Below the pieces are notes generated by a model, which was not told the DNA's origin, searched no databases, and was given only the letters and a program-made list of their open reading frames with translations. From positions 1 through 53,708 of the forward strand of contig QEVC01000004.1 of the NCBI GenBank assembly GCA_003576945.1: a stretch of DNA of 53,708 nucleotides, given 5' to 3'. Source of the DNA: Candidatus Microgenomates bacterium (GTDB lineage: Bacteria; Patescibacteriota; Microgenomatia; UBA1400; UBA12108). How positions within the stretch are numbered: position 1 is the first letter of the stretch; the number at the start of each line of letters is the position of its first letter. Of the stretch, positions 32,944-41,312 are shown piece by piece. The translations under genes were made by a program, and so were the position numbers.

Positions 32944-34233
32944 CTACCTACCTACACCAATGTATTTAAAACCTGCATTTATAACTGTCTTTGGCTCATA
33001 TTGATTGCGAGTGTCAATAAACACTGGATTTGCTTTCATGAGTTTTGCGAGTCTTGAAAGGTCGAGATTGGTATAGTCGTCCCATTCAACTAGCAAGATA
33101 ATAATATCTGAGTTGGTAGCGGCCGCATAAGCATCTTTAGCATAGACAACTTCTTTGGGTAAAAGTGCTTTTGCCTCATCCACCGCCTGAGGATCAGTGG
33201 CACGAACTGTTGCCCCCTGACTTATTAGCCATGGGATTACAGCCAGGGATGGAGCGACGCGAGTGTCATTGGTATTCTTTTTGAAAGATAGTCCTAACAC
33301 AGCCACTGTTTTATTACTAAATGTTCCGGTCTCTTTTTTAAATTGTTCTAGTTTGCGGCTCACGCGTGCTTCATTGAGTGCATTAATCTTAATAAAGAGA
33401 CTATCTGGTTCGCCGACTTTTTTGGCATACGCCGCGATTTCTTTGACATCTTTAGGAAAACATGAACCACCATAACCGAGACCTGGATACCAATACCCTG
33501 GTCCAATACGACGATCCGCGCCAATTCCCTTAATCACCTCTTCGATGTCGGCACCATTATATTCACAGAGATCGGCGATCTGGTTAATGAAGGTAATACG
33601 GGTTGCTAAATAGTTGTTGGCAGCGTATTTGGTCATCTGAGCACTCTCGGGATTCATGACCAGGATGTTACTAGTTAGTGGCTCGTGCAACTTGGTTAAG
33701 ACTTCTTTAGAAAATTCGTCCTCTACTCCGATTACGACGCGGTCAGGATGGAGGGTATCCTCGACTGCTGTCCCCTCTTTAAGAAATTCGGGAACAGAGG
33801 CCAGATGGAAGACTTTTGTTGTTTTACTGCCAATCAAATCACGAATGTGCTTGTTGGTTCCAGGTGGGACGGTACTCTTAATTACGACAACCGCATTTTC
33901 TTTTAAGTGAGGGGCAATGCTCTCGGCAACACTCTCGACAAAGCGAAGATCAGCAGAGCCATCGGGAGCGCTAGGGGTGCCCACCATGATCATGACAACG
34001 TCAGAGTCGGGCACTGCGAGGTGGTAGTCGGTTGTAAAAGTAAGATTGCCACTCTTTTGAGTATTGATGAGGAGCTCAGATAGACCAGGTTCAAAAAAGG
34101 GTACGACTCCCTCTTTTAATTTGGCGATTTTGTCTTCGTCTATATCTAGGCCGATAACCTTGTTCCCTAGTTTGGCTAAGACTGCGGTCGTTACTACACC
34201 GACAAAACCAGTTCCAATACAGGTAATTTTCAT
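32944..34233 (-). CDS. ugd: UDP-glucose 6-dehydrogenase family
   Basis: A 429-residue UDP-glucose/GDP-mannose dehydrogenase: N-terminal GTGFVG (7-12), middle domain with K202 in TKYAANNYLA, and catalytic C258 in GYGGSCFPKD. The C-terminal UDP-binding domain has GLSFKKNTNDTR. It oxidises UDP-glucose to UDP-glucuronate with two NAD. Together with the UXS-like gene it gives UDP-xylose. The start is the ATG at 34233; a longer frame lies in non-coding sequence. It is the first gene of the large leftward operon and the left neighbour of the cassette island, which ends about 75 nt upstream of it. Confidence 0.92.
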   Translation of the reverse strand: MKITCIGTGFVGVVTTAVLAKLGNKVIGLDIDEDKIAKLKEGVVPFFEPGLSELLINTQKSGNLTFTTDYHLAVPDSDVVMIMVGTPSAPDGSADLRFVESVAESIAPHLKENAVVVIKSTVPPGTNKHIRDLIGSKTTKVFHLASVPEFLKEGTAVEDTLHPDRVVIGVEDEFSKEVLTKLHEPLTSNILVMNPESAQMTKYAANNYLATRITFINQIADLCEYNGADIEEVIKGIGADRRIGPGYWYPGLGYGGSCFPKDVKEIAAYAKKVGEPDSLFIKINALNEARVSRKLEQFKKETGTFSNKTVAVLGLSFKKNTNDTRVAPSLAVIPWLISQGATVRATDPQAVDEAKALLPKEVVYAKDAYAAATNSDIIILLVEWDDYTNLDLSRLAKLMKANPVFIDTRNQYEPKTVINAGFKYIGVGR

Positions 34234-34242
34234 ACTCCGATT

Positions 34243-34251
34243 ATGATAGCA
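34243..34251 (-). promoter_or_regulatory. Candidate extended -10 promoter for the ugd-led operon
   Basis: On the minus strand TGCTATCAT, an extended -10 element, lies 9 nt upstream of the ugd ATG; a good -35 is not visible. This is the only gap upstream of the 33-kb leftward run outside the island, so a promoter is expected here or within the cassettes. Confidence 0.3.
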
Positions 34252-34308
34252 CCCGAGGCTGTTATTGGCTACGCTTGCCGAAAGCAAATTTCTGTTGATC
34301 CCTATATC

Positions 34309-34335
34309 GCCTAACGTATGGTGTGTATGCGAGGT
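34309..34335. repeat. attC-like left half-site, leftmost boundary of the cassette island
   Basis: GCCTAAC (34309-34315, fits RYYYAAC) followed by GTGTGTATGCGAGG (34321-34334). The complementary half, CCGCATACACGC then GTTAGGT, is found at 34922-34942, on the other side of hicBA, so the toxin-antitoxin pair sits inside the palindrome. Beyond this point towards ugd the repeat vocabulary stops. Confidence 0.7.
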
Positions 34336-34341
34336 TTTGCT

Positions 34342-34560
34342 TTAAATTTTGAGAAATTCCTCGACTGTCATCTCACATTGTCTGAGAATTGCGCGTAAGG
34401 CACCTTTCGGGATATCTCGGCTATGCAAAGCTACCGTAGACGCACGACCATCCGGATGAATAAGTCTAGCGTGACTACCAGTTTGCCGTGAAATCTTAAA
34501 TCCAGCTTTTTCTAACTTCTTGACTACTGCCAGTGGTTTGAGAACTGGGAGTTTGGGCAT
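34342..34560 (-). CDS. hicA: HicA-like mRNA interferase toxin
   Basis: A 72-residue protein of the HicA/YcfA double-stranded-RNA-binding fold: KKLEKAGFKISRQTGSHARLIHPDG in parts, with the catalytic histidine in GSH (about residue 29) and the DIPKGALRAILRQ tail typical of HicA. HicA cleaves mRNA when freed from HicB. The ATG at 34560 lies 1 nt after the hicB stop, so the antitoxin is translated first, the reverse of the common E. coli order but frequent in this family. Stable maintenance of cassette arrays by toxin-antitoxin pairs is well known from chromosomal integrons. Confidence 0.87.
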   Translation of the reverse strand: MPKLPVLKPLAVVKKLEKAGFKISRQTGSHARLIHPDGRASTVALHSRDIPKGALRAILRQCEMTVEEFLKI

Positions 34561-34561
34561 A

Positions 34562-34849
34562 CTAAACGGCAAATCTGGTATAGGGAGTAACCTGGAAAGG
34601 TACCTGGGTATTAGTCACCAATTCTTCGTTAGGCTTATCAACGGGAATTTCTTTATGTTCTTTTTGCAAACACTCGACATGAAAGGCGATAGTGCTCTGG
34701 ATATTATCGAGTGCTTCTTGAGGGGTAGGCCCATCGTCGACCACACCTAGAGTGGGACAATATGCAACATAGCACGCTTTTTTGCTACCCAGGCTTTTAT
34801 CAAGGCGTAATATTACACGATAGTCGAGAACGGTCTTTTGTTGTTTCAT
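34562..34849 (-). CDS. hicB: HicB-like antitoxin
   Basis: A 95-residue protein with the partial RNase-H fold of HicB: YRVILRLD, then YVAYCPTLGVVDDGPTPQEALDNI in parts, and a helix AFHVECLQKEHKEIP. The C-terminus lacks a clear ribbon-helix-helix or HTH domain, so autoregulation may depend on other elements. The ATG at 34849 is used; upstream in-frame sequence falls in the repeat. A TATACT hexamer ends 9 nt upstream of the ATG and may be the -10 of a cassette-borne promoter. hicA follows after 1 nt. Confidence 0.85.
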   Translation of the reverse strand: MKQQKTVLDYRVILRLDKSLGSKKACYVAYCPTLGVVDDGPTPQEALDNIQSTIAFHVECLQKEHKEIPVDKPNEELVTNTQVPFQVTPYTRFAV

Positions 34850-34896
34850 AGTACTTGGAGTATAGCAAAAATCGGGAAAATATAAAGGCAAATTGT

Positions 34897-34942
34897 GGGC
34901 GAACGACTGCAAGGAGTGGAGCCGCATACACGCTAGTTAGGT
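34897..34942. repeat. attC-like right half-site
   Basis: The segment containing GAACGACTGCAAGGAGTG, then CCGCATACACGC and GTTAGGT (34936-34942, fits GTTRRRY). It pairs with 34309-34335 across hicBA. The same 45-nt segment recurs at 36364-36409 with almost no change. Confidence 0.7.
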
Positions 34943-35019
34943 GACCCGAGCGGAATGTGGCAAAATGCTCCCCTGCCACACGAAGTGAGAGTGCAACGGG
35001 GTGCGAGTGAAACGAGCAA
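34943..35019. repeat. Second hairpin of the cassette boundary (H2, copy 1)
   Basis: Begins with GACCCGA and ends with GAGAGTGCAACG plus GTGAAACGAGCAAG. Between them is a perfect 7-bp stem, TGTGGCA (34956-34962) with TGCCACA (34974-34980). The other copies keep the flanks but have different, still complementary, stems, so the structure and not the stem sequence is conserved. Confidence 0.65.
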
Positions 35020-35029
35020 GTTACAAACT

Positions 35030-35488
35030 TTACGATCTATTTATTAGCTCGGACAATGGCGGAACGCCATAGTCCTTTCGTTCTTGGTCTGATGTTTTGG
35101 GATCGTAGTCGCAGATTATTCCTGTGGCATTATTAAATTGGGTTCCGAATTTCTGTTTTTTACCTTGAGATACGAGCCACCTATCCAGACTGGCGGCATA
35201 CAACCACTTCGTTACGTTGGAACCCAATTTAATTGCCTTTTGAGCGTACTCATGCGCCAGTTTGTATGTGGCGGGAACATCAGACCATGAATGCATGAGC
35301 AATAAACAGGCATAATGACAATTCCATATTTCATTTTCATCTAGTGTTGGAAGAATTGTATTTAACACCTCTTGCCGATGAATATCGTTTTGTTTGAGTT
35401 GATCCTCGGATAATTTGCCTTCGTCAAATAGCTGACGATCACTTTTATCACTTAAATACAATTCTTCCAACTGTAAATGGATTGTCAT
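35030..35488 (-). CDS. DUF6624-like cassette protein
   Basis: A 152-residue, mostly helical soluble protein. The pattern of N-terminal LQLEELYLSDKSDRQ, a middle with paired histidines/tyrosines and HEYAQKAIKLG, then a C-terminal WLYAASLDRWLVSQGKKQKFGTQF in parts and the ending ERKDYGVPPLSELI matches proteins annotated as DUF6624, whose function is not known. The GTQF and D-x-x-x-x-x-x-G-x-x-Q features are the strongest part of the match. ATG at 35488. It is flanked by complementary arms: TTACAAACTTT after its stop (from 35021) and AAATTTTGTAA before its start (from 35496), with one mismatch. Confidence 0.7.
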   Translation of the reverse strand: MTIHLQLEELYLSDKSDRQLFDEGKLSEDQLKQNDIHRQEVLNTILPTLDENEIWNCHYACLLLMHSWSDVPATYKLAHEYAQKAIKLGSNVTKWLYAASLDRWLVSQGKKQKFGTQFNNATGIICDYDPKTSDQERKDYGVPPLSELINRS

Positions 35489-35510
35489 TATGAGTAAATT
35501 TTGTAATTAC

Positions 35511-35627
35511 GTCTAACGTATGGTGTGTATCTGATGTTTGGCGGACTTATAATGGATTATACTCACAAATCCGCCTGATATGGGAGAACGAGTGCAACGA
35601 AGTGAACCAGATACACGCTAGTTCTAC
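35511..35627. repeat. attC-like site, complete (117 bp)
   Basis: GTCTAAC (35511-35517) and GTTCTAC (35621-35627) close an imperfect palindrome. The outer stem is GTGTGTATCTG with CAGATACACGC; an inner stem is GGCGGA (35540-35545) with TCCGCC (35570-35575), with a further TATAAT/ATTATA stem inside. The right arm contains GAGTGCAACGAAGTGAACC. Length and end boxes fit the attC range of known integrons (about 57-141 bp). Confidence 0.7.
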
Positions 35628-35722
35628 GACCCGAATGGAGCGAAGTATAATCTGAAAGCTCTTAATACTCCGCGGAATGAGAGTGCAACGCGATCGAGGA
35701 GCGTAGCGACGAAGACGTAATG
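35628..35722. repeat. H2 hairpin, copy 2
   Basis: Starts with GACCCGAA and carries GAGAGTGCAACG near its end. Stem AGTAT (35644-35648) with ATACT (35665-35669). It joins the complete attC-like site to the 70-residue gene; the last bases (from 35718) form one arm of the gene-flanking inverted repeat. Confidence 0.6.
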
Positions 35723-35935
35723 CTACTCTGAGGAAGAACCTTCTTCATGCTCTAGCCAAGGGCCATCTACAATTATCTTGCGAAGGATCCTCATTTTATC
35801 TACGGAGAGTCTTTCTAACTGTTTCAGTTGAGATTTAAACTCCTCGTTAGTCGCTTCACCTTGGTATCTAACATAATCCTGAGCAAGTCTTCCCTCCTTG
35901 GCTAGAGACTCAGCTATGTCCATTAAGTTTGCCAT
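35723..35935 (-). CDS. Small hypothetical cassette protein
   Basis: A 70-residue helical, charged protein with a glutamate/serine-rich end (EHEEGSSSE). It has no domain I recognise. The gene is supported by a strong ribosome site, AAAGGAG 8 nt before the ATG at 35935, and by its position between matching arms: GAGTAGCATTA (35953-35963) before and TAATGCTACTC (35718-35728) after, the second overlapping the stop codon. It could be an antitoxin-like or regulatory partner, but nothing shows this directly. Confidence 0.6.
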   Translation of the reverse strand: MANLMDIAESLAKEGRLAQDYVRYQGEATNEEFKSQLKQLERLSVDKMRILRKIIVDGPWLEHEEGSSSE

Positions 35936-35967
35936 ATTTCTTACTCCTTTCTGAGTAGCATTATGTC

Positions 35968-35995
35968 GCCTAACGTACAGCGTGTATGCGAGGTT
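35968..35995. repeat. attC-like left half-site
   Basis: GCCTAAC (35968-35974), GTAC, then AGCGTGTATGCGAGG. The partner half is at 36364-36409 on the far side of the 111-residue gene. The arm ends 1 nt before that gene's stop codon. Confidence 0.68.
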
Positions 35996-35996
35996 A

Positions 35997-36332
35997 TTAA
36001 GTTTTTGATACCTCCTCTAATATTTGCCTAAGTTTTCTAGATTCTTTCATGGCCTCCTCCACTTTTTCTTGAGTTATGGATTTGCTAAGCAGGATTGGAA
36101 TAATGCGAGACTGGTGAGCGATGAAACTATCGAGAGGCATAAGGGCACCGCCATGTTTTGACCAAGCCTCCTTTGCACCCTCCCAATTTTTGATTGAGGC
36201 ATCGATCACCAAAGTCTCTCGCAACTTCTTAAATTCATAATGCTTAGAAATCCATACCGTGATAATTGAGGCCATGAAACCTATGAGCGAACCTCCCAAT
36301 CCTGCGATTAATGTAGTAAGCTCTGGTGTCAT
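35997..36332 (-). CDS. Small single-helix membrane protein, hypothetical
   Basis: A 111-residue protein from the ATG at 36332; further upstream in-frame sequence belongs to the repeat and is not expected to be coding. One membrane helix, LIAGLGGSLIGFMASIITVWI in parts (about residues 8-28), is followed by a charged, helical cytoplasmic region ending in ESRKLRQILEEVSKT. It is similar in layout to small holin-like or uncharacterised cassette membrane proteins, but no family is recognised. Here the gene lies between the two halves of an attC-like palindrome, as hicBA does. Confidence 0.6.
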   Translation of the reverse strand: MTPELTTLIAGLGGSLIGFMASIITVWISKHYEFKKLRETLVIDASIKNWEGAKEAWSKHGGALMPLDSFIAHQSRIIPILLSKSITQEKVEEAMKESRKLRQILEEVSKT

Positions 36333-36363
36333 GATGATAATTGTATCAAAAACTAAATAATCT

Positions 36364-36409
36364 GGGCGAACGACTGCAAGGAGTGGAGCCGCATACACGC
36401 TAGTTAGAT
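36364..36409. repeat. attC-like right half-site
   Basis: Nearly identical to 34897-34942, including GAACGACTGCAAGGAGTG and CCGCATACACGCTA, ending in GTTAGAT (36403-36409, fits GTTRRRY). The only change in the end box is A for G. Confidence 0.68.
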
Positions 36410-36487
36410 GACCTGAGCGCGAGGTGATATGATCCCCCGATCACCTCGAGCGAGAGTGCAACGCGGTGCGGAGTGAAACGGAGCAAG
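36410..36487. repeat. H2 hairpin, copy 3
   Basis: GACCTGA start, GAGAGTGCAACG and GTGAAACGGAGCAAG end. Perfect 9-bp stem CGAGGTGAT (36420-36428) with ATCACCTCG (36440-36448), different in sequence from the other copies. Confidence 0.65.
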
Positions 36488-36507
36488 TTAGCAACTCTCA
36501 CTAAAAA

Positions 36508-36852
36508 TTAGTTAATCTTTTCGAAGCCGTTGAAGTGAGGCTTATCGTCGTTGAATACTTCTATAACTTTATATCTTCCTTTTGTCCAGACCTCGCCAGC
36601 TTCTAGATAGTGAGTAGCGTCGAGGATGATAATACTAGCTTTGGGACGGGATAAAACTTGATTGCCTTGTGTCTCTAGGAGCGGAAGTTCGCCGTGCAAC
36701 CAATACAACCTCTGATCTTTTTTGAGAAAGGAATAGGTTTGGCCAACCTCTAACTTTTCGGGGATACATTCCTCTATTTTTCGGTTGCCGGCATGAAATT
36801 CCGCGACATTGCGTAAAGCGAGGTCTGGATTGTATTCAACGACGATACCCAT
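36508..36852 (-). CDS. Hypothetical cassette protein, 114 residues
   Basis: A soluble, beta-rich 114-residue protein (VVEYNP, LEVGQTYSFLKKDQRLYWL, ASIIILDATHYLEAG, YKVIEVFND). No domain is recognised; the alternation of short strands and the YWLHG/EV motifs would fit a small barrel or a nucleic-acid-binding fold, but that is a guess. ATG at 36852. A perfect 14-bp inverted repeat flanks it: TTAGCAACTCTCAC (36488-36501) and GTGAGAGTTGCTAA (36881-36894). Confidence 0.6.
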   Translation of the reverse strand: MGIVVEYNPDLALRNVAEFHAGNRKIEECIPEKLEVGQTYSFLKKDQRLYWLHGELPLLETQGNQVLSRPKASIIILDATHYLEAGEVWTKGRYKVIEVFNDDKPHFNGFEKIN

Positions 36853-36898
36853 ATATGTTGATTATAACCCTTCCTTGATTGTGAGAGTTGCTAATTTC

Positions 36899-37018
36899 AT
36901 CTAACGGGCACTGTATATCTGACGTTGGACGGGTTGATAATTGAGTTTATTGTACCCTAACCCGTCCAATGTGGGTCGAAGGAGTGCAACGACTGAGCCA
37001 GATATACAGTAGTTGTAC
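36899..37018. repeat. attC-like site, complete (120 bp)
   Basis: ATCTAAC (36899-36905) and GTTGTAC (37012-37018) at the ends; outer stem CTGTATATCTG with CCAGATATACAG; inner perfect 11-bp stem TTGGACGGGTT (36925-36935) with AACCCGTCCAA (36959-36969). The outer and inner stem sequences differ from those at 35511-35627, yet pairing is kept. The right arm has GAGTGCAACGACTGAGCC. Confidence 0.7.
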
Positions 37019-37103
37019 GACCCGAAGCCCACACGCTAAAATCACTCAACTTAAAGCGGGTGGGCTGAGAGTGCAACGAGGTCGAACGACTGCAAGGAGT
37101 GAG
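37019..37103. repeat. H2 hairpin, copy 4
   Basis: CGACCCGA start; 12-bp stem with one mismatch, AGCCCACACGCT (37026-37037) and AGCGGGTGGGCT (37055-37066); GAGAGTGCAACG and then GAACGACTGCAAGGAGTG. It separates the leftward cassettes from the inverted-repeat-bounded unit. Confidence 0.62.
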
Positions 37104-37126
37104 ATGTCTATTTGTTCCTTAATTCA

Positions 37127-37146
37127 GTTCGCGCGCGCTTTTACAT
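37127..37146. repeat. Left terminal inverted repeat (20 bp)
   Basis: GTTCGCGCGCGCTTTTACAT; exact inverted partner at 39125-39144. Confidence 0.85.
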
Positions 37147-37380
37147 GTACCCTGTATTCATTTTCAGCTCAGTGTAGAGGGGTTAGGGGTGAATACACTG
37201 AGCTGAATGCTCCCCTAGTCTCCAACTCTGGTGGATATGTCCTATAACTTGACAAAAAGCTATATATCTGGTATGCTACCAAATGTTGTAGTAGTCTGCC
37301 ATGCTGCAAATAGATTGCTATTTCCCAGCGTGAATGAACCAACTATAACTGCACCTTAAAATGCGGAAGTTATCTCCTTT
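37140..37380 (+). promoter_or_regulatory. Conserved promoter/leader block, copy 1
   Basis: 241 bp that recur without insertions or deletions at 38244-38484 with about 22 mismatches counted by eye (about 91% identity). In order: TTTACATGTA; a 14-bp palindrome pair (37163-37176 and 37194-37207); a sigma70-type promoter, TTGACA (37249-37254), 17 nt, TATGCT (37272-37277); a leader hairpin (37303-37329; GCTG, AAATAG / CTATTT, CAGC); a second hairpin (37346-37372); and TATCTCCTTT (37371-37380). Most changes between copies fall between the palindrome and promoter, in the promoter spacer, and in loops, while boxes and stems are kept. This fills the gene-free stretch before the 194-residue gene. Confidence 0.75.
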
Positions 37381-37474
37381 GCCAAGTGGGTAATTTTGTG
37401 GATATTGTCGTGTCTACAAAAATACCCATTTGGGTAGAAAAACGTTTTTCTATTCTGTTCTACAAAAGGAGATA
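37371..37474 (+). promoter_or_regulatory. Anti-Shine-Dalgarno/Shine-Dalgarno pair upstream of the 194-residue gene
   Basis: TATCTCCTTT (37371-37380) is a perfect 10-nt complement of AAAGGAGATA (37465-37474), the ribosome site 4 nt before the ATG at 37479. Between them are self-complementary stretches such as TACCCATTTGGGTA and GAAAAACGTTTTTC. Pairing would close the ribosome site; the alternative is pairing of the same segment with the upstream hairpin. Inference: translational control by the leader. Confidence 0.55.
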
Positions 37475-37478
37475 TACC

Positions 37479-38063
37479 ATGTTCAAGAAAGCCCCCCGTA
37501 AGGAAGATGGATTGGATCTGTTTGCTCGCGCACTCGGAGCCAAATCCGGATCGGACGCCATTCTCAGACAAGAAGCTGACGGTCAACGCTCGTTCGTAGG
37601 TAGCGACACGCTCCCAACCGAAATGAGTGCTGATGATCGCACTGCTCTCGAAGCCGCAGGCGTTGTGTTCGGCGAAGTTGTGCCAGGCGATGACTTGTTC
37701 CAGTATGTTCAGCTCCCCGCTGGATGGACCAAGCGTAGCACGAGCCACTCGATGCACAATGACCTTCTCGATGAGAAAGGTCGCAAGCGTGCAGGCATTT
37801 TCTACAAAGCCGCGTTCTACGACCGCAACGCTCACCTCTACTGTGTGCGCCGCTTCGGCATCAACCTGGACTATGACCAGCTCGAGAATGGGATTGTGCT
37901 TGTGCAGGTGACTGACTGCGATGAAGTGGTTTACTCCACTAATCCTGTTCCGTTCGAAAAGAGCGAAGAGCGCCTTGCACGTGAACAGGCATTCGAAGTC
38001 GCCAAGTCCTGGCTGAACAGCAACTATCCCGAATGGGAAAACGCCGCCGCCTACTGGGACTAA
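37479..38063 (+). CDS. Orphan cargo protein of module 1, 194 residues
   Basis: A soluble, acidic 194-residue protein; no domain I can name. Notable segments are a charged N-terminus (MFKKAPRKEDGLDLF), DDLFQYVQLPAGWTKRST, and KRAGIFYKAAFYDRNAHLYCVRRFG, then a C-terminal helix EERLAREQAFEVAKSWL and WENAAAYWD. The ATG at 37479 has a very strong AAGGAG ribosome site and a near-consensus promoter, so high expression is expected. Codon choice is visibly richer in C- and G-ending codons than in neighbouring genes, pointing to a foreign origin or selection for strong expression. A long antisense frame (37356-38087) is a shadow. Nothing in the sequence suggests an enzyme motif. Confidence 0.75.
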   Translation: MFKKAPRKEDGLDLFARALGAKSGSDAILRQEADGQRSFVGSDTLPTEMSADDRTALEAAGVVFGEVVPGDDLFQYVQLPAGWTKRSTSHSMHNDLLDEKGRKRAGIFYKAAFYDRNAHLYCVRRFGINLDYDQLENGIVLVQVTDCDEVVYSTNPVPFEKSEERLAREQAFEVAKSWLNSNYPEWENAAAYWD

Positions 38064-38068
38064 TTCCT

Positions 38069-38150
38069 CACCTTCCGCAAGGTGCAAAACGCTCGACCCC
38101 TCCGGTCACGTCCACGTAAGTGGAAAGATTGGAGGGGTGTTTTGTATCTA
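38069..38150 (+). terminator. Structured 3' end and intrinsic terminator of module 1
   Basis: CACCTT/AAGGTG hairpin (38069-38084) directly after the stop; then ACCCCTCC (38096-38103) pairs with GGAGGGGT (38131-38138), followed by GTTTTGT. Inside that stem is TCCACGTAAGTGGA (38111-38124), a short stem capped by a GTAA (GNRA) tetraloop. The GGAGGGGTGTTTTGTATC end is identical in module 2. Confidence 0.7.
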
Positions 38151-38184
38151 TTAACTTTCGCTATACAAAGTGGCAATTTTAGCG

Positions 38185-38253
38185 CTTTAATTAACAAAAG
38201 TCGCCGTAGGCGACACCTCATCCCCCTCTAAAAATAATATACCTTTACATGTA
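38185..38253. repeat. 69-bp direct repeat, copy 1
   Basis: Matches 39056-39124 with three mismatches in the first 16 nt and none in the remaining 53. It contains the perfect hairpin GTCGCCGTAGGCGAC and ends in TTTACATGTA, which is the start of the next leader. This direct repeat plus the leader mark the module borders. Confidence 0.8.
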
Positions 38254-38484
38254 CTCTGTATTCCATTTCAGCTCAGTGTAGAGGGGTTAGGGGTGAATAC
38301 ACTGAGCTGAATGCTACCCATACCATCACCTCTGGTGGATATGTCCTATAACTTGACAAATGACTACATATCTGGTATGCTACGAGATGTTGTAGTAGTC
38401 TGCCATGCTGCAAATAGTTTGCTATTTCCCAGCGTGAAAGAACCCACTATAACTGCACATTAAAATGCGGAAGTTATCTCCTTC
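38244..38484 (+). promoter_or_regulatory. Conserved promoter/leader block, copy 2
   Basis: Second copy of 37140-37380. Palindrome arms at 38267-38280 and 38298-38311; TTGACA (38353-38358), 17 nt, TATGCT (38376-38381); leader hairpin 38407-38433 in which only a loop base differs from copy 1; second hairpin; CTCCTT at 38478-38483, which can pair with the AAGGAG ribosome site at 38563-38568. Downstream of it, a perfect CACTTTTG/CAAAAGTG hairpin and a wider TAGCAC/GTGTGCTA pairing replace the corresponding structures of module 1. This block fills the gene-free stretch 38151-38577. Confidence 0.75.
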
Positions 38485-38577
38485 TATTGTGGGTAGCACT
38501 TTTGGTATCAAAAGTGGTACTAAGTGTGCTACTCACAAGTAGTGAAACCCCAACCCACCCAAAAGGAGTACTGAAAA

Positions 38578-38886
38578 ATGAACGATAAAGTTATTACCCT
38601 CCCGAGCGCTGATGAAATGATTGCTCGCCTGATGAAAGTTCAGGATGATGAACTCGCCCAGTCACTGTACAGGAACGTTGCGCAGCGTGCTGGCGAGGAG
38701 AAGGTTGCGGCTGGCATCATTATGATGTTCAGTCTTGGCATCTACGATGTCTGCCAGGGATACCCTCCCATGATGCAGAACCTTCTCTCCTACAACATCC
38801 CCGCGTGGGTCGACGCCCTTGTTGATGACAAGGAAGTTGCCGATGCGGCTAAGGCTTTCTGGAAGGAAGCTACGAGCAAGAAATAA
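38578..38886 (+). CDS. Orphan cargo protein of module 2, 102 residues
   Basis: A 102-residue, helix-rich soluble protein (ADEMIARLMKVQDDELAQSLY, AGIIMMFSLGIYDVCQGYPP in parts, VADAAKAFWKEATSKK). It is unrelated in sequence to the 194-residue protein of module 1, although promoter, leader and terminator are shared. No domain recognised. ATG at 38578 with AAAGGAG at 38562-38568. Many C- and G-ending codons, again unlike the neighbouring operons. Confidence 0.72.
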   Translation: MNDKVITLPSADEMIARLMKVQDDELAQSLYRNVAQRAGEEKVAAGIIMMFSLGIYDVCQGYPPMMQNLLSYNIPAWVDALVDDKEVADAAKAFWKEATSKK

Positions 38887-38923
38887 GTCTTCGCGAGGTC
38901 AAATATTGAAACCACTAGCTGGG

Positions 38924-39054
38924 CGACGTAAGTCGACGGGTTACTCCGTTATCAGTTATACTTCCGCAAAAGAAGTGCAGACATCCCCTCCGAATAGTCG
39001 GAAATTGTTGCGTAAGTTGCAACGTTTTTGATTATAGGAGGGGTGTTTTGTATC
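38924..39054 (+). terminator. Structured 3' end and intrinsic terminator of module 2
   Basis: CGACGTAAGTCG (38924-38935), a stem with a GTAA tetraloop; then CCCCTCC (38985-38991) pairing with GGAGGGG (39037-39043), enclosing GTTGCGTAAGTTGCAAC (39007-39023), another GTAA-containing hairpin; followed by TGTTTTG. This mirrors the 3' end of module 1, with different stems but the same loop and outer clamp. Confidence 0.68.
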
Positions 39055-39055
39055 A

Positions 39056-39124
39056 CTTTAGTTAATGAAAGTCGCCGTAGGCGACACCTCATCCCCCTCT
39101 AAAAATAATATACCTTTACATGTA
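39056..39124. repeat. 69-bp direct repeat, copy 2
   Basis: Second copy of 38185-38253; its TTTACATGTA end runs straight into the right terminal inverted repeat, as if a third module could be or once was attached here. Confidence 0.8.
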
Positions 39125-39144
39125 ATGTAAAAGCGCGCGCGAAC
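39125..39144. repeat. Right terminal inverted repeat (20 bp)
   Basis: ATGTAAAAGCGCGCGCGAAC; exact inverted partner of 37127-37146. Confidence 0.85.
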
Positions 39145-39168
39145 ATATAAATAGTACAAATAGATATC

Positions 39169-39210
39169 GTACAACTAGTGTGTATGCGAATAATGTTCGC
39201 ATACACAGAC
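39169..39210. repeat. attI-like hairpin site upstream of the recombinase gene
   Basis: GTACAACTAG followed by a perfect 12-bp stem, TGTGTATGCGAA (39179-39190) and TTCGCATACACA (39196-39207), with a 5-nt loop. The AACTAG-GTGTATGCG core is the same as that in the cassette sites at 34922-34937 and 36389-36404 (reverse complement), and CTAGTTGTACGA in reverse is shared with 37008-37020. It is the only such site without a gene or long inner stem, and it lies 19 nt before the recombinase start, where an integron carries attI. Confidence 0.6.
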
Positions 39211-39213
39211 ATT

Positions 39214-39222
39214 TGGTAGAAT
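39214..39222 (+). promoter_or_regulatory. Candidate extended -10 for the recombinase gene
   Basis: TGGTAGAAT, an extended -10, ends 6 nt before the ATG at 39229. This would give a leaderless mRNA and would place the attI-like hairpin over the -35 region, so that recombinase binding could repress its own gene. No clear -35 or ribosome site is visible. Confidence 0.35.
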
Positions 39223-39228
39223 ATTAGC

Positions 39229-40035
39229 ATGTGGAAAGAACGATTACAACTATATATGCAGGCTCGTGCATACAGCAGACGAACCATATCTGCGTATATT
39301 GATTCTGTCGATCGGATAGTCAAGAAAACGAGAAAAGATCCAGCTAATATAGATGAGCAAACGCTAGAAAAATACCTGAGCCAACTATACAGCTCTGGCA
39401 TGTCGCCCTATACCCTCAACCAGCACCACATGGCGTTAAAATTACTTAAGACTGCGGTACTTGGTCAGTCGTGGGACCCTAAGTTTGGCTATGCCAAAAG
39501 ACCAAAGAAAATCCCCGTTACACTAACTAAGAATGAGATCTCAAAATTAATAGATTCGACTGCTAATCCAAAACATCAGTTAATACTGGCTCTCGCATAT
39601 GGCGCAGGCCTACGGGTCAGCGAAATAATCGCCCTTAAAGTAATGGATATCGATTTTGAGAACATGCGGGTTGTAGTACGGAGTGGCAAAGGACAAAAAG
39701 ATCGAACGACAGTCCTCCCTGATAAGTTAGTCACCACTCTCAATTCGTATCTCGCAGGACGCAAAAAAGACGACCATGTCTTTTTGAGTGAGCGAGGTGG
39801 GACACTAACTACCAGGACGCTACAAGCGATATTTGCTAAATCGCTAAATCGTGCCGCGATTAATAAGGCCGCCACCTTTCACAGTCTCAGACACAGTTTT
39901 GCCACTCACCTCCTTGAGCAGGGTGTAGATATTAGGTATATCCAGACACTGCTCGGCCATGCTAGTATTACGACAACTCAGATTTATACTCATGTTGCGA
40001 GTACTGCACTACATAATATCAGGAGCCCATTATGA
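39229..40035 (+). CDS. Xer-like tyrosine recombinase (candidate cassette integrase)
   Basis: A 268-residue tyrosine recombinase with an N-terminal SAM-like core-binding domain (about 1-85, including YSRRTISAYIDSVDR) and a complete catalytic domain: R129 (GAGLRVSE), K154 (SGKGQKDR), H218-xx-R221 (HSLRH), H244 (LLGHASITTT) and the nucleophile Y253 (IYTHV). Length and sequence resemble XerA/XerC/D-type enzymes; the extra segment that integron IntI proteins carry before the HxxR box is not seen. ATG at 39229. Its stop overlaps trmD as ATGA, so it is coupled to a core gene, unusual for a mobile integrase. The repeat-sharing hairpin upstream links it to the cassette island; a chromosome-dimer-resolution Xer role is the main alternative. 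Confidence 0.88.
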   Translation: MWKERLQLYMQARAYSRRTISAYIDSVDRIVKKTRKDPANIDEQTLEKYLSQLYSSGMSPYTLNQHHMALKLLKTAVLGQSWDPKFGYAKRPKKIPVTLTKNEISKLIDSTANPKHQLILALAYGAGLRVSEIIALKVMDIDFENMRVVVRSGKGQKDRTTVLPDKLVTTLNSYLAGRKKDDHVFLSERGGTLTTRTLQAIFAKSLNRAAINKAATFHSLRHSFATHLLEQGVDIRYIQTLLGHASITTTQIYTHVASTALHNIRSPL

Positions 40036-40715
40036 GGATCGACATTATTACCCTTTTTCCAGAATTTTTTGATGGCCTAAAAAAACACAGCATTGTGGGT
40101 CGCGCGATTGATAATGAGAAAGTTGAGCTACACACACACAACTTACGTGAGTGGGCGGTAGATAGCTATGGAACAGTAGATGATCACCCCTATGGTGGTG
40201 GGCCAGGAATGGTTTTGAAAGTAGATGTCATGCATGCGGCAATAAAAGCAGTAAAAGAGAAAGTTAAAGATTTTGATGGGAAAGTCATCCTGCTTACACC
40301 ACAAGGCAAAGTCTATAAACAAAAAAAGGCACTAGAGCTGGCGAAAGAAAAAAATATAATCTTGATTTGTGGACACTACGAAGGATTTGACGAGCGGATC
40401 AGAGAGTACGTGGACTTAGAAATATCGGTTGGAGATTATGTACTGACAGGTGGGGAAATCCCTGCGATGATCCTAGTTGATTCAGTATCGAGATTATTAC
40501 CAGGAGTACTTGGAGATGATGCTAGTAGCCATGATGAATCACATAGTGAAGGACTATTAGAATACCCACAATATACGAGGCCAGCCAAATATGATAATAA
40601 GGGAGTGCCAGAAATACTATTATCTGGCGATCATCCAAAAATTGATGCCTGGAGAAAAGAGCAAGCGATAATTAAAACTCAAAAAAGAAGGCCAGACTTA
40701 CTTAAAACGAAGTGA
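40032..40715 (+). CDS. trmD: tRNA (guanine-N1-)-methyltransferase
   Basis: A 227-residue SPOUT methyltransferase. It starts MRIDIITLFPEFFDGL, with HPYGGGPGMV (52-61), LLTPQGKVY, CGHYEGFDERI and SVGDYVLTGGE, which form the trefoil knot that binds S-adenosylmethionine, and the linker DESHSEGLLEYPQYTRP with the catalytic aspartate. It methylates G37 of tRNAs to stop frameshifting and is essential in bacteria. It usually sits with rpsP/rimM/rplS; here it follows the recombinase with an ATGA overlap and has no ribosomal neighbours. Its 3' end overlaps a convergent gene by 18 nt. Confidence 0.97.
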   Translation: MRIDIITLFPEFFDGLKKHSIVGRAIDNEKVELHTHNLREWAVDSYGTVDDHPYGGGPGMVLKVDVMHAAIKAVKEKVKDFDGKVILLTPQGKVYKQKKALELAKEKNIILICGHYEGFDERIREYVDLEISVGDYVLTGGEIPAMILVDSVSRLLPGVLGDDASSHDESHSEGLLEYPQYTRPAKYDNKGVPEILLSGDHPKIDAWRKEQAIIKTQKRRPDLLKTK

Positions 40716-41312
40716 GTTTAACATCGAATTTACAACTACCTGATACTCTAACTTTGCTTGATCACTACCGAAAGCCATGATAATTAGGCGATATAGGGTA
40801 TCGGCCAGCATAAGGTAGTGATAGTCACCTTCGCCTAAGCAACCGCCGTAAAACGTAATAGTTTCATAGTCGCCAACTTTACCTGATTTGATAGGTGTTG
40901 CATTTTCTTCACTACAGGCATCGATAATCCCCTTGCGATCTACCTCCGCTTGCAACTTGTCCGGATCATCACCCACCGTCTCGAAACGAGTTATTGCAAG
41001 AACGTATCCATCCCAGAGTTCTGTTTGAGTACGCCCAGACTTCTTTTGTTCTTCGCCCATGTAGCTAATTACCCATTCTCGCGAATCGGGAGCACGTGAG
41101 GCACTAGTGGTCGCGCTAGAGCTATGTGATATGGTGAAATATTCATTATTAATGGTTTCAGACAATGAAACCTTGGGGCTTGGACTTGGTGTACTAACCA
41201 TACTGGTTGGGGATACTACTGGAGCAACTGTAGTTGAGCCACCATAACTAAAACGCAGATAGATTAAAATAATTGCAACTAAAGACAAGACTATGTAGAG
41301 CGCGGTCTTCAT
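40698..41312 (-). CDS. Membrane-anchored extracytoplasmic protein, hypothetical
   Basis: A 204-residue protein with an N-terminal membrane helix (about residues 4-21) and no lipobox cysteine, then a serine/proline/threonine-rich linker (26-52) and a globular domain (55-204) with four cysteine-free strands, a CSEENATP and a GGCLGEGDYH segment; the two cysteines could form a disulfide. The layout (anchor, Ser/Pro linker, small domain) is common for uncharacterised secreted proteins of these bacteria. ATG at 41312, overlapping the rmlD stop as ATGA; it ends convergently with trmD (18-nt overlap). Function unknown. Confidence 0.72.
   Translation of the reverse strand: MKTALYIVLSLVAIILIYLRFSYGGSTTVAPVVSPTSMVSTPSPSPKVSLSETINNEYFTISHSSSATTSASRAPDSREWVISYMGEEQKKSGRTQTELWDGYVLAITRFETVGDDPDKLQAEVDRKGIIDACSEENATPIKSGKVGDYETITFYGGCLGEGDYHYLMLADTLYRLIIMAFGSDQAKLEYQVVVNSMLNSLRFK

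Follow-up and report, generated by a model that had tools for sequence, protein, structure and literature searches.

The closest described systems are the integrons run by IntI integrases, both class 1 and sedentary chromosomal ones (VchIntIA with its VCR sites; PDB 2A3V), in which a divergently read integrase lies next to an attI site and a one-way array of cassettes, whose inverted-repeat attC sites share one polarity. In integrons the first and last R-box letters of a cassette stem from one circular site and so agree, whereas an arrayed site combines R boxes from neighbouring cassettes, which need not agree. Crossover takes place at G|TT of the R box, and the mixed cargo includes restriction-modification, toxin-antitoxin and uncharacterised genes. 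Published work describes the IntI insert as a requirement for recombination in integrons (PMC9668308, PMC8138268). Archaeal integrons, which like the system described here come from uncultured lineages known from metagenome-assembled genomes, encode integrases with the IntI-specific domain (PMC9668308), unlike the recombinases found here. Here we analysed a stretch of 53,708 nucleotides from a Candidatus Microgenomates bacterium (GCA_003576945.1, contig QEVC01000004.1, contig 26 of its genome; the whole stretch is called the window), in which a cassette array with a tyrosine recombinase lies between ugd and trmD.

The window is part of the chromosome of a very small, probably symbiotic bacterium, whose assembled genome measures 825 kb and is 98% complete. 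The size of this genome and its relatives agree with the Patescibacteria type assumed in the preliminary description. The locus is ordered as ugd (32944-34287, minus strand; the distal chromosomal flank), cassette array, attI-like site, recombinase and trmD (40032-40715, plus strand; the proximal flank), an overall layout that is the same as in a class 1 integron. The array is a genuine gene-collecting platform with an integron-like build and layout and, judged from its sequence, very probably a sedentary chromosomal cassette-capture system of the integron type. We assign it to the integron-type systems run by a non-IntI integrase, outside the IntI integrons, because attI, organisation, cassette signature, inferred crossover and turnover fit an integron while the IntI insert, the R-box consensus and the match to class 1 attC fail. 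A preliminary description of the locus had offered two readings, a divergent integron or an independent cassette system, and had called the recombinase Xer-like rather than a clear IntI. Both parts of this interpretation are supported. No integron of Patescibacteria (candidate phyla radiation) was described in the literature that we searched, which consisted of open-licence PMC papers, and the novelty of the system rests on searches of that scope.

Arrays of one orientation and their cassette ends

We collected 50 Patescibacteria loci, each turned so that the recombinase reads on the plus strand, and found a common anatomy of recombinase, conserved attI box and one-orientation arrays of up to 13 sites. 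A site finder gave 116 candidate sites upstream of the recombinase and 8 downstream of it; the reversed control gave 36. With a covariance model built from 42 sites (R1) we recovered 55 sites in eight loci, every one in the same orientation relative to the recombinase, and 104 of 122 cargo open reading frames (ORFs) were read one way. The box ATTTC-RYMTAAC-TMGTTTTTATRCGAA was present just upstream of the recombinase in 39 loci, so that attI lies beside the integrase with the first cassette at its R box; in the window, the boxes of cassette 1, the attI-proximal cassette, match attI. The bare pattern GTTRRRY-N60-90-RYYYAAC gave 15 forward matches genome-wide versus 24 in the reversed control and is therefore uninformative.

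The ends of cassettes carry the same R-box letters. Among cassettes bounded by finder-defined sites, 47 of 80 were perfectly matched, against 5.6 (maximum 15) in 2000 permutations. For model-defined sites a perfect match was found in 33 of 52 cassettes and one mismatch in a further 17, against 7.9 (maximum 18) in 5000 within-genome permutations. Within sites, the R boxes matched in 1 of 52 cases. In the long array of genome G148 the site side ends in NNNNAAT and its mate begins with GTTNNNN, and eight cassettes agree at six R-box letters and differ solely at the seventh, which places the exchange between NNNNAA|C and G|TTNNNN, the crossover point of integrons. This very long array (L123, G148:C1:275000-292000) has many near-identical sites and many R'' boxes that end in AAT instead of AAC.

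The sites are conserved in pairing rather than in sequence. Across 60 sites whose spacer is 4/1 nt, the L stem measures 11 bp; its positions are 95-100% Watson-Crick paired and show up to four kinds of pair each. RNAalifold on 42 sites showed that 9 of 16 pairs were changed on both sides; the sites thus fold as R''-L''..L'-R' inverted repeats conserved by structure. The preliminary description had named repeats that decay like neutral sequence as speaking against a cassette system, and these compensatory changes contradict such decay. The L stem is unbulged and has no extrahelical bases, unlike class 1 sites in the same orientation, in which an extrahelical base is present, and behind it follow a conserved step without pairing and two hairpins recognised by eye, a further difference from IntI integrons. 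The R-box consensus also differs, being NNMYAAC/GTTRKVY here; the strict integron forms RYYYAAC and GTTRRRY were found in 18 and 15 of 81 sites, respectively. A lack of attC-model matches had also been named as speaking against a cassette system. R1 matches the sites, while a small class 1 attC covariance model built here from 11 sequences gave no significant match at the window sites (E 2.3-5.3); it matched eight class 1 control sites, of which six had served for training, at E ≤ 3e-4. Since the best E value of this 11-site model was 2.3, such sites could escape a canonical attC search. No Rfam family passed its threshold in the window, and two arrays gave no match at E 0.1 or better.

Further differences from IntI integrons are cassette-specific outer stems and genes inside site loops. 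Cassette-specific inverted repeats often start 4 nt off each R box, and 54 of 61 exceed the 95% point of mismatched pairs; in a circular cassette they would lengthen the stem of the site past the R boxes. G219 provides a further case of a gene enclosed by a site loop (1195-1905, 710 bp; ORF 1232-1832).

MITE-like hairpins (miniature inverted-repeat transposable elements) inserted independently beside genes that happen to lie near an ordinary Xer recombinase, could account for those site and leader sequences that are near-identical repeats. We regard this as extremely improbable, as the sites are confined to the upstream side of the recombinase (116 compared to 8), occur nowhere else in their own genome and vary in sequence yet keep their pairing, and the matching cassette ends already contradict it.

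Cargo was exchanged between fixed flanks. A genome of the same genus (G001) can be aligned collinearly with the window over 9.1 kb of the distal flank (72% identity), with an alignment that ends at 34273, in the ugd flank and 36 bp short of the distal R box, and trmD follows the recombinase in both genomes. The order ugd, array, recombinase and trmD is kept in G001, which has no homologue of any window cargo gene, and its array holds one site-bounded cassette with another gene. The fixed gene order that the preliminary description had named as speaking against a cassette system is contradicted by this full exchange of cargo beside a collinear 9 kb flank. A genome of the same family without the recombinase (G004) has ugd, a nudix gene and trmD, with no integron, and represents the empty locus. 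In G283 a 615-bp cassette-plus-site unit is duplicated at 92%. Two G001 contigs (C3 and C14; L170 and L175) carry the 3' end of the recombinase and trmD at about 91% identity, probably due to strain mixture in the assembly.

These data also bear on a shufflon or phase-variation system, in which the recombinase would invert segments between inverted repeats and so switch expression. Most genes are flanked by inverted repeats and the two genes of cassette 1 read the opposite way, as such a system would allow; against it, the model-defined sites do not alternate in orientation (55 of 55 point one way in the eight loci), R-box letters travel with the cassettes, and between relatives the cargo is replaced, not inverted. 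A shufflon is therefore highly improbable.

The cargo of other arrays belongs to 60 Pfam families at E ≤ 1e-4, including restriction-modification, HNH, GmrSD, GNAT, NUDIX and Macro proteins, and one 5.3-kb cassette of G426 carries, by sequence, a type III restriction-modification pair.

A short recombinase without the IntI insert

The recombinase of 268 aa (39229-40035, plus strand) is transcribed away from the array, as the preliminary description had stated, and its 3' end overlaps the start of trmD at 40032. It has a SAM-like and a catalytic domain (Pfam Phage_integrase, E 4.5e-45), and R129, K154, H218, R221, H244 and Y253 were invariant in an alignment with 19 relatives. The earlier view of the protein as Xer-like and not a clear IntI holds: it reached the cut-off of NCBIfam recomb_XerA_Arch (225.7 bits, cut-off 220) and missed that of the IntI model TIGR02249 (215.3 bits, cut-off 265). 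In a tree made with a quick method, the 47 Patescibacteria proteins with 250 or more residues group on one side of a branch (Shimodaira-Hasegawa-like approximate likelihood ratio test, SH-aLRT, 94), apart from canonical IntI (SH-aLRT 100) and from XerC/D. The closest fold in the PDB to the predicted structure (predicted local distance difference test, pLDDT, 88) is that of the integron integrase-VCR complex 2A3V. The viral contigs searched contained no relative of the recombinase.

In domain make-up, and in reaching the XerA_Arch cut-off, the recombinase resembles the Xer/XerA dimer-resolution recombinases and the 'Cand' subgroup of simple tyrosine recombinases (PMC8138268), from which it differs in being patchy, linked to arrays and separate from the two XerC/D-like proteins of its own genome. 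It was found in 10 of 138 close relatives, its own genome included (E ≤ 1e-40), and, at E ≤ 1e-58, in 44 of 380 genomes of the phylum and 21 of 374 of the class. Dimer resolution by Xer at dif, for which a near-universal gene and a single dif site are expected, was rejected, with the gene in 44 of 380 Patescibacteria and many sites per array. Matches to R1 at E ≤ 1e-4 were present in 41 of 240 genomes sampled, and 23 of these 41 also carry the recombinase at E ≤ 1e-58; about one eighth to one sixth of the sampled Patescibacteria genomes have the same system. As the recombinase directly precedes trmD in many families (L049, L051, L061, L143, L144, L142, L068, L150), the platform may have been passed on at a single locus and lost several times.

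Another explanation is that the sites are canonical attC sites whose cassettes a conventional IntI mobilises in trans, that is, a cluster of attC sites lacking an integrase (CALIN) beside an unrelated recombinase. CALINs are common in other bacteria (PMC9024848, PMC9668308), and the site polarity and layout fit class 1 attC (AACG..TGTT). We consider this very unlikely, since none of 287 Patescibacteria genomes reached the IntI cut-off, the attI-like box and the arrays adjoin one clade of short recombinases, and the class 1 attC model had no match at the sites.

Some observations weigh against an integron-type system with its own integrase. About 43 residues that IntI1 and VchIntIA have between two catalytic blocks are missing from 50 of 50 recombinases (the same gap was seen against 2A3V). 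At the threshold used (E ≤ 1e-58), 18 of the 41 site-bearing genomes have no recombinase. Finally, the R boxes match perfectly in only two of the four window cassettes, the others having one and three mismatches, so that part of the window array may be decayed.

Among the genomes without a recombinase at this threshold, G157, G185 and G244 have several model-defined sites and may represent recombinase-less arrays or contain a more divergent enzyme. A sister of the Patescibacteria clade (L163, G271:C5), in which the insert at the IntI position is shorter and a site lies at 57-183, may be an intermediate form. Bacteroidota also have short recombinases with arrays of inverted sites (L014, L020), and L020 has four consecutive cassettes with a perfect R-box match; unlike in the Patescibacteria, their array lies downstream of the recombinase, the site consensus is another one and the proteins occupy a separate part of the tree. 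Such downstream arrays were seen at L020:11281-13152, L014:17088-18293 and L162:9515-9582.

Sites and cassettes of the window

The window contains two complete attC-like sites, two with genes in their loops and one attI-like site, all on the minus strand, as are the cassettes. The two complete sites of 117 and 120 bp given in the preliminary description, with ends of RYYYAAC/GTTRRRY-like form, were confirmed: site A (35511-35627, 117 bp, GTCTAAC..GTTCTAC) scored 73.4 bits (E 7e-16) and site B (36899-37018, 120 bp, ATCTAAC..GTTGTAC) 66.0 bits (E 5e-14) with R1, whose training set included both. They were the only R1 matches in their own genome. Compared to shuffled DNA, site B folds far better (z -5.6/-5.0) and site A only slightly better (z -1.2). 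The distal site (34309-34942; GCCTAAC at 34309-34315, GTTAGGT at 34936-34942) has hicBA in its loop, and the other looped site (35968-36409; GCCTAAC at 35968-35974, GTTAGAT at 36403-36409), with arms GTGTATGCG/CGCATACAC and repeats D2-D5 and I4, has a gene of 111 aa (35997-36332, minus). We rejected a reading of the R boxes at 34309 and 35968 as decayed half-sites, as their partners at 34936 and 36403 complete the sites, with genes in between. Elsewhere in the 825-kb genome, no copies of repeat families D2-D5 and D7 were detected.

The attI-like site (39169-39218) has the R box GTACAAC (39169-39175 on the plus strand), scored 17.3 bits with R1, adjoins the recombinase and forms a perfect 12-bp hairpin (39179-39190/39196-39207; z -4.6/-5.6). 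Neither this box nor the cassette ending in it was part of the preliminary description. This cassette 1 (37012-39175) has perfectly matching boxes, GTTGTAC..GTACAAC, and two genes without a family, of 194 aa (37479-38063) and 102 aa (38578-38886), both read on the plus strand towards the recombinase. Each has the same 240-nt leader (37140-37379, plus strand; second copy at 38244-38483, 91%) with the promoter-like site TTGACA-17-TATGCT, and a 77-nt trailer behind it (38177-38253 and 39048-39124). Parts of the same leader and trailer surround a different gene at the same attI-proximal place in G001.

Cassette 2 (36403-36905) also has perfectly matching boxes (GTTAGAT..ATCTAAC), a cassette-specific inverted repeat (I9) and a gene of 114 aa (36508-36852, minus). 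In cassette 3 (35621-35974), with three R-box mismatches, a gene of 70 aa (35723-35935, minus) is flanked by inverted repeat I8, and cassette 4 (34936-35517; GTTAGGT..GTCTAAC, one mismatch) encodes 152 aa (35030-35488, minus) with a weak DUF6624 match under the cut-off (E 1e-3). The distal loop encodes HicA toxin (34342-34560, minus; PF07927, E 3e-18) and, adjoining it, a HicB-like antitoxin (34562-34849, minus; HicB_lk, E 0.02); of the toxin-antitoxin pair noted earlier, HicA was thus confirmed and HicB weakly supported. The mostly leftward reading of the cargo was also confirmed, hicAB included, except for the two genes of cassette 1. Apart from HicA, the window cargo gave no clear family in Pfam and NCBIfam profile searches. 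An exact 15-nt inverted match between the distal array edge (34300-34314) and a gene beyond trmD (40784-40798) may be due to chance.

Proposed mechanism and its meaning

In the mechanism that we propose, the short tyrosine recombinase would join circular cassettes by recombining a folded, inverted-repeat attC-like site with the attI-like box next to it. An exchange of strands between NNNNAA|C and G|TTNNNN in the R box would leave matching letters at both cassette ends, with the site body trailing the gene. Repeated insertion at attI would make the leftward array grow beside the recombinase, and recombination between sites could excise, duplicate or reorder cassettes. As the pairing is compensatory, we infer that the substrate would be a folded single strand. 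The enzyme has no IntI insert to grip extrahelical bases, which are absent from the L stem as well, so the strand would be chosen by other asymmetries; candidates are the 4/1-nt spacer, the conserved bulge that follows the L stem and the pair of hairpins behind it. The missing insert and the missing extrahelical bases are correlated.

More tentatively, these arrays may represent a second, separate integron lineage that is common in Patescibacteria, with an integrase that never had or has lost the IntI insert, an L stem without an extrahelical base, and outer stems and in-loop genes as possible birth marks. In that lineage, the outer stems and loop genes may reflect a site module inserted into or around a gene's own hairpin. 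The cassette-specific outer stems bear on the old open question of how cassettes are born.

Searches with IntI profiles or class 1 attC models would pass this system over. It offers a natural comparison for how a recombinase picks the strand in a folded site. A widespread system that has integron cassette signatures and lacks the insert would indicate that cassette capture as such can do without it. The system also provides Patescibacteria, which are small and usually thought to be gene-poor, with a dedicated platform for gene capture.

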